NCBI GenBank assembly: GCA_012729785.1 | Contig: JAAYCL010000001.1 | Coordinates: 62,001-126,000, forward strand | Direction of reading: 5' to 3' | DNA: 64,000 nt | DNA from: Chlamydiota bacterium | GTDB lineage: Bacteria; Auribacterota; Tritonobacteria; UBA1439 | Shown: positions 3,001-16,234 of the stretch, piece after piece | Numbering within the stretch: position 1 is the stretch's first letter | How the letters are laid out: each line of letters starts with the position of its first letter | The notes under the pieces: model-generated | The model's input: the letters and a program-made list of their open reading frames with translations, nothing else | The model's database searches: none | Told to the model about the DNA's origin: nothing | Position numbers and translations under genes: made by a program

Positions 3001-6000
3001 TTCGGCCTCGACGAGGCGAGCCCGGCGTTCACGATCATCGATCCGCCCGCGCCGGTGGTGTCCGCGATCAGCCCCGCCTTGCCGACGAAGGATTACGACG
3101 GCCTCTTCGTCATCACCGGCCTGAACTTCTTCGGCGTGCCGGAGGTGCACTTTGGGGACGTCACGGGGTACTACAATTTGGAATACCCCAACTTCGATCC
3201 CGCGCCGACCTCGACGACGATCTGGATCCGCATCGCCCCGGAGGATCTCCTCTCGCTCTGCGACCAGGGGGAGCAGCCGGTCCAGGTCTTCAACCCGGAC
3301 GGGCAGGGGTCGAACACAGACATCATACTCACGGTGAACGGCCCGCCGCCGCCGACAGTGACGAGCGTGACGCCGGCGTCGGAGGAAAGCAACAAGGTCT
3401 GTACGATCACGATCGACGGGAGCGCCTTCGTGGAGACCCCGTCTGTCTACCTGGTGAATCCCGACACGGGCGTCGCGACCGACTGCCTCAACGAGACGTT
3501 CGTGTCGACCTCCCGGATCACGGCGGACGTGCCGACTGGCCTCGATCCGCGGGCGTACACGGTGCGGGTCTGCAACCCGCCGTGCAGCCCGGGGGCGCCG
3601 ATCCGCTGCGGCGAGCGAACCGGCGGTTTCACCGTGACGCTGCCGCCGCTGAACGTGATCGGCGTGAGCCCCCCGATGGGACTTCCCGGCGCCCCCACGG
3701 AGATCGTCGTGGTGGGGGAGAATCTCCAGCCCTCCGCGACGGTGCAAGTCGGGGCGATGGACTGCCCGGTCGTCCGCGTGGTGAGCACGACCTGCATCGT
3801 GGCGACAGTGCCCGCGGGGATGGAGCCGGGGCTCTACGGTCTCACGGTGGACAACCACGATGAGAACCCGACAGCGACGCTCCCGGATGCCTACACGGTG
3901 CCGGGGATCCCGACGATCACGTCGGTGACGCCCCCCAACGGTTTCCTGAACGCCACGACGCCTGTTACGGTAGAAGGCACGATGTTCGTCTACCCGCCCA
4001 TCGTCCGCCTGGAGCAGATCTTCGACGAGGAGACCTCGACGGGGGCGGATTCGAACACGATGACGGACACGGCCGCCGCATGGGAGGTGGATCAGCTCCG
4101 GAACGGTATCGTGCGGATCGTGCTGGGGCCGGGCGTGGGGCAGGAGCGGCGCATCGTCTCGAACACGGAGACCACGCTCACCGTCGCCCGCGACTGGGAT
4201 ATCCCCCCCGCGGCCTCCGGCTACCAGCTCGTCCTCGACGGCGCGTGGCATCGCTGCGTCCAGGCGGCGCAGGACCCGGACTCGCCCTCGACCAAGGTCC
4301 TGGCGAAGGTTCCGTCGGGTCTCCCGGCGGGGGCATACTTCCTGTCCGTGGTCAACCCGCTGAGCCAGAGCGGCGTCAGCACGCTCGCCGCGTTCACGGT
4401 GAATGCGGCGCCGGTGGGGGCGCCGGTGGCGGCGTCCGTGACCCCGCCCGACGGGACGAACGACAAGGAGACGTCGATCACGATCGAGGGGTCTAACTTC
4501 ACCGGCGCGACGGGTGTGACGGTGGGCGGGACGGCCTGCACGAGCGTGACGGTGGTGAGCGACACGCAGATCACGGCGACTGTGCCGGCGGGCTTGAGGG
4601 TGGGGAGTTATGACGTGGCGGTGACCAACGCGACGGGCACGGGGGCGCTCACGCACGGCTTCACGGCGGGCGGATCCGGGGGACTCGACCCCGCCGCCGA
4701 CACGACGATCGCGGGAGGGGTGCTGCTCACCGGCGACATCGTGGTGCCCGCCGGCAGGACGCTGACGCTGGAACCGGGGACGGTCGTCACGGTTGCGCTC
4801 GGCGACTCCACCGGGACCGGCTGGGACACGGAGAGGACCGAGATACTGGTCTACGGCCGCCTGAATGTCCCCGGCGACGCGGAGGCCGACACGGTTCTCC
4901 TCGCCTCCGCGGACAACAACGCGTCGGATTGGCTCGGCGTCGTCTTCGCCGATTCGACCGCCTCGGCGTGGGTGCGGCACGCGGAGATCTCCGGCGCGGT
5001 CTACGGCCTCGACTTCAAGTCGAGCGTGAAGCTTCCGACCGCGGCGAACCCGCGGCCGTGGATTCAGCGCCTCCTCGCCCAAAAATGCGCCACCGGCGTC
5101 GCGCTGGGCAGTTCGATCGGCTTCAGCGCGCCCGCCCTCGACGCCTGCGAGGTGCGTGACTGCGCGACGGGGATCGCCGCGGGCGGGACCGCCGCGCCCA
5201 TCTTCACCGCGCTCCTTCTCACCGGGGCCGATGCGTCGACCGCCGCGGGCAACTCGATCGTCACCGTCAAGGACTCGGCGTTTGTCTCCGCGGGAACGAT
5301 CGCGCTCGCGGACGCCGCCTCGCTCAACCTGATCGGTTCGACCGTCGATGCCGCGGGGGGGGTCGTCTGCACGGGCTCCTCCGCCGCCGCGGCGCTGTTC
5401 AGCGCGCTCCTCGACGCGCCGGTCGCCCTGAAGGATTCCTCCTCGCTCGCCGCCCGCACGACGACGTTCCTCGGCAAGGGGATCGGCGCCGAGGGGGACT
5501 CGAGACTCTCGGCCGCGCATTCCGCCGTCGTCCGGGGGAACTACGAGGGGACCGGGGTCTCCTGGGGCAGCACCGGGCCGTGCGCCTTCAGCACCACCGT
5601 CTTCGGAGGGTGGAACATCGGCCTCGACCGGGCGGGCGGGTGCGGCCCGGTGCAGCTGGGGATCAGCCTGGAGAGCGGGGGGAACGAGTTCCTCGGCGCG
5701 CAGAACCCCGGGGCGGAGTACAACGTGGCGAACAACTGCCCCCTGGGCATCTCCGCCCAATACAACTGGTGGCTCGTGGCCGACGACGGGTCGGTGATCG
5801 GCGACTATATCTGGGACGCGGCTGACGCGGACGGGCTGGGCCTCGTCGACTACTCGAACCAGCTGACGGAGCCGCGAACCTATATGGCCGCGGGGCGCGT
5901 GACGGACGTCTCGGGCGCCGGCGTGCCGGGGGCCCGCGTGGAGGCGCGGGGAGTTCCCGCCGCCCCGTACGCGGACGGCGACAGGATCACCTTGACCGAC

Positions 6001-12671: not shown

Positions 12672-13523
12672 ATGCAAGGGAGAAGGGTGTTGTTCAAGGG
12701 GTCGCCGCTCACGCTGGCCGGGCGGACGGTGCGGACCGGCGACGCGGCGCCGGAATTCCGCGCGACGACGAAGGAGCTCAAGGAGATGCGCCTCTCCGAC
12801 TTCCGGGGGAAGGTGAAGGTGATCACCTCGTTCCCCTCGATCGACACCCCGGTCTGCGACCTCCAGGTGAAGGAGTTCAACGCGCGCGCGGCGGAGCTCG
12901 GCGTCGGGGTGGCGGTCGTCGGGATCAGCAAGGACCTCCCGTTCGCCCAGCATCGTTTCTGCGAGACGTTCGAGATCGCGAACGTACAGCTGCTCTCCGA
13001 CTACCTCCACTCCTCATTCGGCCTGAACTACGGCCTGCTCGTCAAGGAGCTGAATCTCCTGGCGCGCGCCGTGCTCATCGTGGACGCAGGCGGCGTCCTG
13101 CGCTACCTCCAGGTGGTGCCCGAGATCGCGTCCCCGCCGGACTACGACGAGGCGCTCGCCGCCCTCCGAGAGGTGTTGAAGTCGCCCGGCGATCCGTCGA
13201 AGGCGGCGCCCGCCCCCCGGTGCGTCCCGTGCGAGGGCGGCGTCCAACCGCTGCCGCCGGGGGAGGCCGCCTCCCTCGCGGCGGGCATGCCGGGATGGGG
13301 GATCGTCGAGGGAACGCGGCTCGTCCGCGACTACGCATTCGGCGACTACCGCGATGCGGCATATTTCGTCGACCTCGCCGCGGCGTTGGCGGAGGAGCAG
13401 GGGCACCACCCCGTGCTGACGCTCTCCTGGAACAAGGTCGCGGTCTCCCTCACGACGCACGCGGCGGGCGGGCTCACGCGAAACGACTTCACGATGGCCG
13501 CCCTCCTCGACCAGCTCCTCTAG
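12672..13523 (+). CDS. tpx: Thiol peroxidase fused to pterin-4a-carbinolamine dehydratase
   Basis: 283 residues with two domains. Residues 1-175 are an atypical 2-Cys peroxiredoxin of the Tpx family: TPVC62DLQ holds the peroxidatic cysteine and RFC97ETF the resolving cysteine, at the usual spacing. After a Pro/Ala linker (about 176-190), residues 190-283 match 4a-hydroxytetrahydrobiopterin dehydratase (PCD/DCoH) with the full signature: E-x3-H245-H246-P, W253, H263 and D272. Tpx reduces hydroperoxides with thioredoxin; PCD recycles pterin cofactors or acts in molybdopterin/folate-related roles. Both active sites look intact, so the fusion is probably bifunctional. GGAGG lies just before the ATG. 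The stop codon touches the left end of the RAYT element. Confidence 0.9.
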   Translation: MQGRRVLFKGSPLTLAGRTVRTGDAAPEFRATTKELKEMRLSDFRGKVKVITSFPSIDTPVCDLQVKEFNARAAELGVGVAVVGISKDLPFAQHRFCETFEIANVQLLSDYLHSSFGLNYGLLVKELNLLARAVLIVDAGGVLRYLQVVPEIASPPDYDEALAALREVLKSPGDPSKAAPAPRCVPCEGGVQPLPPGEAASLAAGMPGWGIVEGTRLVRDYAFGDYRDAAYFVDLAAALAEEQGHHPVLTLSWNKVAVSLTTHAAGGLTRNDFTMAALLDQLL

Positions 13524-13552
13524 TGGGGTCAGGTCCTTATTTATTATACTAG
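13523..13552 (+). repeat. Left inverted end of the RAYT element
   Basis: Thirty bases starting GTGGGGTCAGGTCC, complementary to 14600-14629 with two mismatches. The first base is the last base of the tpx TAG stop codon. It contains a TATACT (13545-13550) that could act as a -10, but there is no matching -35. Confidence 0.85.
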
Positions 13553-13637
13553 GGGGCCGAAAGAGCCCCGTTTCGACAGACGGCGACGGCGTCTTCGACG
13601 ATCTCTCCGGGCGGGGAGGGGGGAAGGGGGGGAGGGC

Positions 13638-14603
13638 ATGTCCAGGCCCCAGAGGATCGAATACCCCGGCGCGCTCTATCACGTGACAAGCCGCGGCAAC
13701 GAAAAGGGAGCCATCTTCTGGGAGGACAGGGACAGGCGCAAATTCCTGTCGCTGATCGACGCCGCGCATCAGCGCTATGAGATCCTGCTCCACGCCTATC
13801 TCCTCATGCCGAATCATTACCACCTGCTGATCGAAACCCCCCGGGGGAACCTCGCCAGGGTGATGCACGATCTGAACGGAGTCTACACGGGGTACGTGAA
13901 CGCCGTCCGGAAGAGGACCGGCCACCTGTTCCAGGGGCGCTACAAGGCGATTGTGGTGGAGAAGGACCGGTACCTCCTCGAACTGTCGCGGTATATACAC
14001 CTCAACCCCGTGCGCGCGGGGTTGGTGAAACTGCCCGGACAGTACGCGTGGAGCGGGGTGCACTACCTCCTGGGCGCCGCCGACGCCCCCGCATGGTTCG
14101 ACGCGGATTTCACGCTGCGTATGTTCGCCGAATCCCGGCGCGATGCGAGGGCCGCGTATCGCGAATTCCTGCGCCAGGGCCTGGAGAAGAAGAGCCCGCT
14201 TGAAGACGTCTACGCGCAGTGCATGCTCGGTTCGACGTCGTTCATCGCCGCGGTCAAAAGCGCATGGATGCAGGATGACCGCATCGGCCGGGACGTGGTG
14301 CGCGCGAAATCCCTCTCCAGGAAGGCGACCCTCGACTCGATCAGGGATCTTGTGGCCGGGGAGGCGGGGCCGAATGAACAGCCGTTTCCCCGCCCCGGGA
14401 CGCGGAAGGACCATCTCGGCGTGAAACTCTTTATCTACTTGGCCCGAAGATACACGGACAAGACCCTGCGGGATATTGCGGACTATTTGGGCTGGATGAA
14501 CGCAAACGCGGTCTCCCAGGCGCATTTCACGTTCAAGCGGCGGCTCGAGCGGGACAAAACGATCCAGGCGACTGTCGCCCGGCTCGAGCAGGCGCTGCGC
14601 TAG
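13638..14603 (+). CDS. REP-associated tyrosine transposase (Y1_Tnp family)
   Basis: 321 residues. The N-terminal domain is a Y1 HUH single-strand transposase: IEYPGALYHVTSRGN, the metal-binding H60-Y-H62 in MPNHYHLLIETP, and the tyrosine region RYIHLNPVRAGL (about Y119). The C-terminal part (about 255-318) looks like a DnaA domain IV-type helix-turn-helix (LARRYTDKTLRDIADYLG), known from many RAYT proteins. The GGGGAGG run before the ATG can serve as ribosome binding site. The last codons and the stop lie inside the right-end repeat. The reading frame is intact and motifs complete, so the enzyme may still be active. Confidence 0.92.
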   Translation: MSRPQRIEYPGALYHVTSRGNEKGAIFWEDRDRRKFLSLIDAAHQRYEILLHAYLLMPNHYHLLIETPRGNLARVMHDLNGVYTGYVNAVRKRTGHLFQGRYKAIVVEKDRYLLELSRYIHLNPVRAGLVKLPGQYAWSGVHYLLGAADAPAWFDADFTLRMFAESRRDARAAYREFLRQGLEKKSPLEDVYAQCMLGSTSFIAAVKSAWMQDDRIGRDVVRAKSLSRKATLDSIRDLVAGEAGPNEQPFPRPGTRKDHLGVKLFIYLARRYTDKTLRDIADYLGWMNANAVSQAHFTFKRRLERDKTIQATVARLEQALR

Positions 14604-14630
14604 ACTAATAAATAAGGACCTGACCCCACG
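14593..14630 (+). repeat. Right end of the RAYT element, copy 1
   Basis: Thirty-eight bases that include the last two codons and stop of the transposase and the inverted end. Identical to 14643-14680. Confidence 0.9.
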
Positions 14631-14642
14631 ATGATGAGCGGA

Positions 14643-14680
14643 CGCTGCGCTAGACTAATAAATAAGGACCTGACCCCACG
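14643..14680 (+). repeat. Right end of the RAYT element, copy 2
   Basis: Exact copy of 14593-14630 after a 12-base spacer; it ends one base before the GTG start codon of murJ, so it occupies that gene's ribosome-binding region. Confidence 0.9.
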
Positions 14681-16234
14681 GTGAGGAGGATTGCGCGGGC
14701 GTCGATGCTGCTGGCGGCGGCGAGCGCGGGGTGCCACGTCCTCGGGCTGGTCAAGGAGATGCTGATCGCCGGGCAGTTCGGCATCAGCCGGGCGATGGAC
14801 GCGTTCTACGCCGCCCTCGCGGTCCCGCACGCGCTCAACAATATCCTCCTGTCGGCGTTCGGCGCCGTCTTCATCCCCGCCTACGTGCGCCACGCCCTCC
14901 TCGGCAACGAGGCCGCCGACCGCGTCGCCGCCGCGGCGCTGCGCCGCCTCGGGCTCATCCTCGCCCTGGCGGCGGCCGCCCTCTTCGCCGGGGCCCCGCT
15001 CGTCATCGGGCTCGGATTCCGGGGCCTGCCGCCCGACGGGGCGGGGGAGGCGGTCCGGATCCTCAAGGTCGTCGCCTTCACGATGGTGCTGAGCGGGGCG
15101 GCGGGGGCCTTGTCGGGCGTGCTCAACGCGCGCGCGCACTTCTTCTGGCCCGCGGTCTCGCCGGTCCTCGTCACCCTCGTCAGCATCGTCTTCATCGTGC
15201 TGGGCGCCCAACGGATGGGGGTGATGGCGCTCGCCTGGGGCCTGGGCGCGGGACTCCTCGCCCAGTGCCTCGTCCTCGCCGCCGCCGCCCGCCGCGAGGG
15301 GTTTCGTCCCGCGTTCCTCGACGCCCGGGGAGAACCGGCGGTGCGGGAGATGACCGCCGGGGCGCTCCTGCTCATCGTCGGCATCGTCGCGGCGCAGGGG
15401 AACGTCCTCGTGGACAGCGTGATGGCGTCGTACCTCGCCCCCGGCAGTCTCGCCGCGCTCTCCTACGCGGCGAAGCTCGTGATGGTCCCCCTCGTCGTCT
15501 TCACCGGATCCCTCGCCACCGCGGCGTTCCCCCACTTCTCGAAGCAGGCCGCCGGGGGGAGGATCGCGGAGCTGAAGGAGGCGCTCGCGGCGAGCATCCG
15601 GATGGCGGGCTTCGTCTTCCTCCCGCTGACGGTCGCGCTCGTTATCCTGGCGCGGCCGCTGATCGCGCTCCTCTTCCAGCGCGGGGCGTTCGACCGCGAG
15701 GCGGCGGAACTGACCTCGGCCATCCTGGCCTGCTATGCGCCCCAGATGTTCTTCTGCACGGTCAGCATCCTCCTCGTGCGCGTCCACCTCGCGCTCGACG
15801 AGAGGGCCGTGATGGTGAAGGTCGCATTCGCGGGGGTGGGGATGAACGTCGCCTTCAACCTCCTCTTCATCCGGTTGATCGACCCGCCGGCGGCCGGTCT
15901 GGCCCTCTCGACCTCGCTCGTCCAGTGCATCGCGTCGTGGCTCTTCTACCTGCCGCTGGCCCGCCGCATCGGCGCCTTGCACGCGCAGGACCTTCTCCCG
16001 GCGCTGCTCCGCACCGCCTGCGCCTCCGCCGCGATGGCCGCGGCGATCCTGGCGGCGTCGGCCGCGGCCGGGGCGCGCGGGGCGGGGCCCGTCGCGTGCC
16101 TGGCTGTTTCCGCCGCCGCGGGGGCGGTCGTGTTTCCCGCGGCGGCGCGGCTGCTCGGGTCCACCGAGCTCGACGGCCTGGCGCGCCTCGCGCGGGACGC
16201 ATGCCGGCTTCGGCGGCCGGGGGGGAGCCGGTGA
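14681..16234 (+). CDS. murJ: Lipid II flippase MurJ (MviN family)
   Basis: 517 residues with about 14 hydrophobic helices, normal for MurJ, which moves lipid II across the inner membrane for peptidoglycan synthesis. The family N terminus is clear: MLLAAASAGCHVLGLVKEML, then AMDAFYAALAVPHALNN and GAVFIPAYV. The GTG at 14681 directly abuts a transposon end repeat and has no ribosome binding site; an ATG at 14705 is an alternative start. The insertion may therefore have changed its expression. The stop overlaps the next gene's GTG by four bases (GTGA), which suggests translational coupling with the glycosyltransferase. Confidence 0.92.
   Translation: MRRIARASMLLAAASAGCHVLGLVKEMLIAGQFGISRAMDAFYAALAVPHALNNILLSAFGAVFIPAYVRHALLGNEAADRVAAAALRRLGLILALAAAALFAGAPLVIGLGFRGLPPDGAGEAVRILKVVAFTMVLSGAAGALSGVLNARAHFFWPAVSPVLVTLVSIVFIVLGAQRMGVMALAWGLGAGLLAQCLVLAAAARREGFRPAFLDARGEPAVREMTAGALLLIVGIVAAQGNVLVDSVMASYLAPGSLAALSYAAKLVMVPLVVFTGSLATAAFPHFSKQAAGGRIAELKEALAASIRMAGFVFLPLTVALVILARPLIALLFQRGAFDREAAELTSAILACYAPQMFFCTVSILLVRVHLALDERAVMVKVAFAGVGMNVAFNLLFIRLIDPPAAGLALSTSLVQCIASWLFYLPLARRIGALHAQDLLPALLRTACASAAMAAAILAASAAAGARGAGPVACLAVSAAAGAVVFPAAARLLGSTELDGLARLARDACRLRRPGGSR

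Follow-up and report, generated by a model that had tools for sequence, protein, structure and literature searches.

Thiol peroxidases (Tpx) are recognised by a peroxidatic cysteine in a T-x-x-C motif and a resolving cysteine on a later helix, and pterin-4a-carbinolamine dehydratases (PCD) by a catalytic His-His...His...Asp set; in textbook accounts, PCD receives its substrate from an aromatic amino-acid hydroxylase. In the window, the stretch of 64,000 nucleotides that was analysed, both kinds of domain are encoded by a single gene (Table 1). Like known atypical 2-Cys thiol peroxidases (NF001808; solved structures 2jsy, 3p7x, 2yzh, and 1qxh), the encoded protein has the whole Tpx domain with both cysteines at the Tpx positions; unlike these, it continues at its C-terminus into a PCD half of some 110 residues, and many of its Omnitrophota copies lie in oxygen-defence loci. 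Likewise, it shares with PCDs (PF01329, COG2154; PhhB, DCoH) a full-length domain, the HHP / TH / D residues, and the N-terminal CxxC of many bacterial PCDs, but it carries an attached peroxidase and belongs to genomes without the hydroxylase and usually without MoaC. Both domains are known. For the fused enzyme, and for its place among oxygen-defence genes in genomes that lack the hydroxylase, no description was found in openly licensed papers in PubMed Central; the earlier note, too, knew of no such described enzyme. Domain databases may list the architecture.

Table 1. Features of the fusion locus (nucleotide positions in the window; residues of the encoded protein).
Feature	Position	Strand	Remarks
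Tpx-PCD fusion gene	12672..13523	+	283 aa, ATG to TAG; same one-frame architecture in 63 of the best 80 relatives
Thiol peroxidase half, residues 5-166	12684..13169	+	NF001808 178 bits; model superposes on solved Tpx chains
C184-V-P-C187 motif, start of PCD half	13221..13232	+	kept in 63/64 fused proteins
Pterin-4a-carbinolamine dehydratase half, residues 193-282	13248..13517	+	PF01329 85.8 bits; solved PCD/DCoH chains match residues 198-283
MurJ-like flippase gene	14681..16234	+	downstream of fusion gene

The fusion of Tpx to PCD reported in the earlier note is real: there are no internal stop codons in the 283 codons, and both halves are above the Pfam cut-offs, with 91.5 bits for Redoxin over residues 22-162 (cut-off 26.6) and, for Pterin_4a, a match to profile positions 2-91 of 91 (cut-off 26). 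The peroxidase half is also above the cut-off of the NCBIfam thiol peroxidase equivalog (123 bits). The narrower NCBIfam PCD equivalogs (NF002016-NF002020) score 51.7-76.3 bits, all under their cut-offs (80-146), and the PCD half is therefore a divergent member, although judged by its Pfam score it is well inside the family. Neither a second Tpx nor a second PCD was found in the genome of the window beyond the fusion gene.

Residue conservation was counted over 64 aligned fused proteins, being 63 relatives and that of the window. The peroxidatic cysteine, C62 in T59-P-V-C62, is present in all 64 and C97, the resolving cysteine by alignment with Tpx, in 63, both at the positions given in the earlier note. 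The PCD signature is complete in the window protein (E241-x3-H245-H246-P247...W253...H263...D272). Among the fused proteins H245, H246, T262, N271, and D272 are invariant (64/64), H263 is replaced once, by F (63/64), and E241 is kept in 51 with Q in 11. At position 253 most have Y (57 proteins), with W in 6. Based on these key residues, both halves look catalytically competent, as had been suggested.

The fusion was modelled from an alignment of 57 of the 64 fused proteins, leaving aside longer, shorter, or near-duplicate rows (L015, L024, L031, L036, L043, L050, and L055). The model has a mean pLDDT of 89.7 and a pTM of 0.80, its weakest stretch being the joint at residues 171-190 (mean pLDDT 70). 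Its Tpx half matches 3p7x_B with Z 28.6 and rmsd 0.9 over 163 aligned residues (44% identity). In two fold searches with the whole model, only peroxiredoxins and no PCD chain were among the 50 matches listed in each; the Tpx half fills these lists, which are therefore uninformative on the PCD half. The assignment of that half rests on Pfam and on solved PCD chains matched by sequence.

A scan of genome contigs gave at least 509 relatives, the best 80 of which were compared. Sixty-three have Tpx and PCD in one frame (one of them, L055, cut by the contig start), 16 have a Tpx without an in-frame PCD (among them L064, whose PCD lies in a different frame), and the remaining one, L081, ends in a degenerate tail. 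Fusion carriers among these 80 are mostly Omnitrophota, with Auribacterota, Brocadiales, Gammaproteobacteria, and others. Within the window's own phylum the full fusion is present in 5 of 44 genomes, all in a single family (f1, which has 6 genomes), outside which Tpx and PCD are separate proteins. In 384 Omnitrophota genomes, 49 of the matches listed span both halves, and the PCD domain lies in frames of at least 281 residues, also in 49 cases. Plasmid records searched with the PCD half gave 36 matches, all below 60% identity; the six inspected are all unfused PCDs.

In a quick tree of the PCD domain, based on 104 columns and giving no firm inner branching order, all 64 fused copies and one split copy (L175) form a single clade (SH-aLRT 98). 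It is therefore likely that there was one single fusion event. In the Tpx tree, the bootstrap of which is not yet settled, the fused label requires five changes, and ten unfused Tpx of Omnitrophota form a clade nested among the fused ones (100/99). These ten are best read as having lost the PCD half, which would therefore be dispensable in some of these organisms. The window groups weakly with L016 and L021 (83/45). Three PCD-less Tpx (L072, L074, and L077, each at 3001-3558) have a short tail with two cysteines, followed by a frame for an FAD/NAD oxidoreductase. In L064 (1232-2079) the fusion is apparently split over two frames, and in L175 (2442-3267) the Tpx is in two pieces and the PCD in its own frame; either case may be decay, real splitting, or sequencing error.

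The genes around the fusion often belong to oxygen defence. A core oxygen-defence gene (flavodiiron, desulfoferrodoxin, rubrerythrin, hybrid-cluster/prismane, or ferritin) is present no more than about 3 kb away at 36 of the 63 fused loci versus 0 of 40 SHMT control loci, similar in length and from the same genome set, in a translated search leaving out each locus itself; the contrast somewhat favours the fused loci, since the queries were taken from them. This agrees with the connection to peroxide defence drawn in the earlier note. In the other 27 fused loci there is no core gene nearby. The neighbours of 62 fused loci (without L061 and the window) were also clustered, the clusters being named by Pfam on one representative each, except that the larger oxidoreductase subunit (cluster 4) was named from its own sequence and its neighbour. 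The commonest clusters were flavodiiron protein, found in 18 loci, DJ-1/PfpI in 16, FAD/NAD oxidoreductase in 15, desulfoferrodoxin in 13, 2-oxoacid:ferredoxin oxidoreductase subunits in 13 and 11, hybrid-cluster/prismane in 7, rubrerythrin in 6, VIT1 in 6, and ferritin in 4. In 15 loci DJ-1/PfpI is the next gene downstream, no more than 100 bases away. The window locus and the Auribacterota loci L016, L021, and L088 have no adjoining oxygen-defence gene, and have murJ downstream.

Forty unfused PCD loci of Omnitrophota were compared with the fused ones; most came from the top of a ranked table, so they are not a random sample. The HHP...TH...D pattern is present in all 40. Six have a core oxygen-defence neighbour: the split fusion L175, and L139, L140, L141, L142, and L144, which in the PCD tree branch at the same poorly resolved fork as the fused clade. 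No such neighbour was found for the 32 Omnitrophota PCDs in a large standalone clade or for the two PhhB-like ones (L159 and L160). The five are nearest to the fusion in the tree and have the same type of neighbour (flavodiiron or rubrerythrin); unlike the fusion, they have no Tpx attached, nor is there one in the about 6 kb read per locus. In L141 (2971-5186) and L142 (2971-5185) the PCD, an FNR-like oxidoreductase, and a flavodiiron protein lie in a row, with a gap of about 10 bases between the aligned parts of the first two, possibly a pterin-linked oxygen-reduction operon. In L139 a flavodiiron gene is upstream of the PCD on the same strand. The location of these five among oxygen-defence genes indicates that the association of this line of PCDs with oxygen defence either is older than the fusion to Tpx or arose separately from it.

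An aromatic amino-acid hydroxylase (PF00351) was found neither in the window's genome nor in any of 50 other fusion genomes, which were reached through 50 of the 63 fusion loci. It was likewise found in none of the 384 Omnitrophota genomes; one of 14 control genomes, Caulobacter, was positive. The fusion genomes are mostly metagenome assemblies, many of them surely incomplete, so that single gene absences mean little; the joint absence of the hydroxylase across them is clear. The earlier note had coupled peroxide defence with pterin recycling, and this part of the idea must change, given that the hydroxylase is absent from all 51 fusion genomes tested. Of 52 fusion genomes, SHMT was identified in 49 and HPPK in 45, in both cases including that of the window, which makes folate the sole pterin system detected in almost all of these genomes. 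Formate-THF ligase is over its cut-off in just 27 of the 52, and not in the window's genome; Wood-Ljungdahl-type folate use is thus not required as a common factor. Protection or repair of a reduced pterin, with folate as the only near-universal pathway here, is possible and is the version that we prefer.

We therefore propose, tentatively and at somewhat less than even chances, that the fusion is an oxygen-stress enzyme of anaerobes, in which Tpx clears peroxide and PCD processes a reduced pterin or folate oxidised at C4a. The domains and genomic context are well supported; as to the substrate, we infer that it is most likely tetrahydrofolate or its precursors. The Tpx half would reduce hydrogen peroxide or organic hydroperoxides at C62, with C97 as the resolving residue and thioredoxin as the probable reductant, and the PCD half would dehydrate a 4a-hydroxy-tetrahydropterin, arising without a hydroxylase through oxidative attack on C4a of the reduced pterin. 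Should Tpx accept a pterin 4a-hydroperoxide, the two reactions would be consecutive, with 4a-OOH converted to 4a-OH by Tpx and 4a-OH to quinonoid dihydropterin by PCD; some reductase, possibly the FNR-like neighbour, would then re-reduce the product. This proposal is supported by the conserved halves, the absence of the hydroxylase, the presence of folate genes, the neighbouring genes, the nearest unfused PCDs, and the lack of any second Tpx or PCD in the window's genome. It is weakened by the 27 of 63 loci and the Auribacterota loci without such neighbours, by the losses of PCD, and by the E241Q and H263F variants.

A stricter version, that the fusion is a dedicated repair enzyme in which Tpx converts a C4a-hydroperoxide to the C4a-alcohol and PCD yields a quinonoid dihydropterin that can be re-reduced, is doubtful. 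According to PMC9737128, tetrahydropterins autoxidise to quinonoid dihydropterin and hydrogen peroxide and electrophiles oxidise mainly C4a-N5, but the equilibrium towards the pterin peroxide lies to the left and oxygen and radicals attack C8a. The disfavoured peroxide and the attack at C8a weaken the hydroperoxide step, and removal of peroxide beside clearance of the carbinolamine would be more likely than a true hand-over of the hydroperoxide. This stricter version would give PCD a task independent of any hydroxylase and would add to the oxygen defence of anaerobes a branch that protects folate. PCDs are widespread in genomes that lack a hydroxylase, and there is no settled view of their function there; for example, 138 of the 384 Omnitrophota genomes encode a PCD that scores over the cut-off, and the hydroxylase is missing from all 384. 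The peroxidase fusion and its unfused relatives in flavodiiron operons offer an explanation that can be tested, namely that these PCDs deal with reduced pterins damaged by oxygen. If this is true, folate would rank with iron-sulfur clusters as a recognised target of oxygen for which anaerobes have a dedicated repair enzyme.

It is also conceivable, if unlikely, that the PCD half has been kept for its fold, assembling or anchoring the peroxidase, and that catalysis is incidental. PCD/DCoH proteins occur as dimers and tetramers, and members with other jobs do exist: DCoH is a binding partner of HNF1, and some PCD-like proteins help to assemble Rubisco. The absence of the hydroxylase and, mostly, of MoaC from the fusion genomes fits such a role. 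However, a scaffold would have no need of the invariant H245, H246, T262, N271, and D272, and the unfused PCDs of Omnitrophota retain HHP...TH...D without exception.

Two further cysteines that the earlier note does not mention, C184 and C187, open the PCD half, and their presence as a pair in 63 of 64 fused proteins raises an alternative that we regard as improbable, a redox relay in which C184-x-x-C187 takes the disulfide from C62-C97 or acts as a redox switch of the PCD half. Three of the ten PCD-less Tpx of the nested clade (L072, L074, and L077) have two-cysteine tails, in keeping with a relay. Against it, the joint at residues 171-190 is the least confident region of the model, and the CxxC is also present in standalone PCDs (10 of 11 in one set and 33 of 40 in the Omnitrophota set), among them the unfused PCD of P. 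aeruginosa. The pair therefore predates the fusion, and the CxxC is ruled out as a fusion-specific feature.

A role of the PCD half in molybdopterin metabolism has very little probability. Such a role is predicted for PCDs (COG2154) in a table of PMC3223725; for the fusion it is mostly ruled out by the rarity of MoaC: only 10 of the 52 fusion genomes, the window's not among them, score above the cut-off, whereas the same model matches 11 of 14 control genomes. Still less probable is that the fusion serves an aromatic amino-acid hydroxylase by regenerating its pterin, as a PhhB-like enzyme with a peroxidase attached: the PCD half does resemble PhhB-type enzymes, and the unfused P. aeruginosa PCD adjoins phhA, but PF00351 was nowhere found (0 of 51 fusion genomes and 0 of 384 Omnitrophota genomes), which refutes it within the limits of incomplete genomes. 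An assembly artefact or frameshift, with two genes merged by a lost stop codon, has nothing in its favour and is ruled out for practical purposes because the one-frame fusion recurs in 63 of the best 80 relatives, spread over several phyla and numerous assemblies, and neither a separating stop codon nor a lack of fused relatives, both raised in the earlier note, was found.

At the window locus, a cation-efflux gene is upstream of the fusion gene, and an IS200-like element followed by the MurJ-like gene is downstream. In the Auribacterota relatives the two genes overlap, murJ beginning 1-4 bases ahead of the point where the fusion gene ends; in the window the element (13523-14679) parts the stop codon of the fusion gene from murJ. 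The element contains an IS200-like (Y1) transposase gene (13638-14603) flanked by inverted repeats of 30 bases (13523-13552 paired with 14600-14629 and 14650-14679). It is overlapped by a 50-base tandem duplication (14586-14685).
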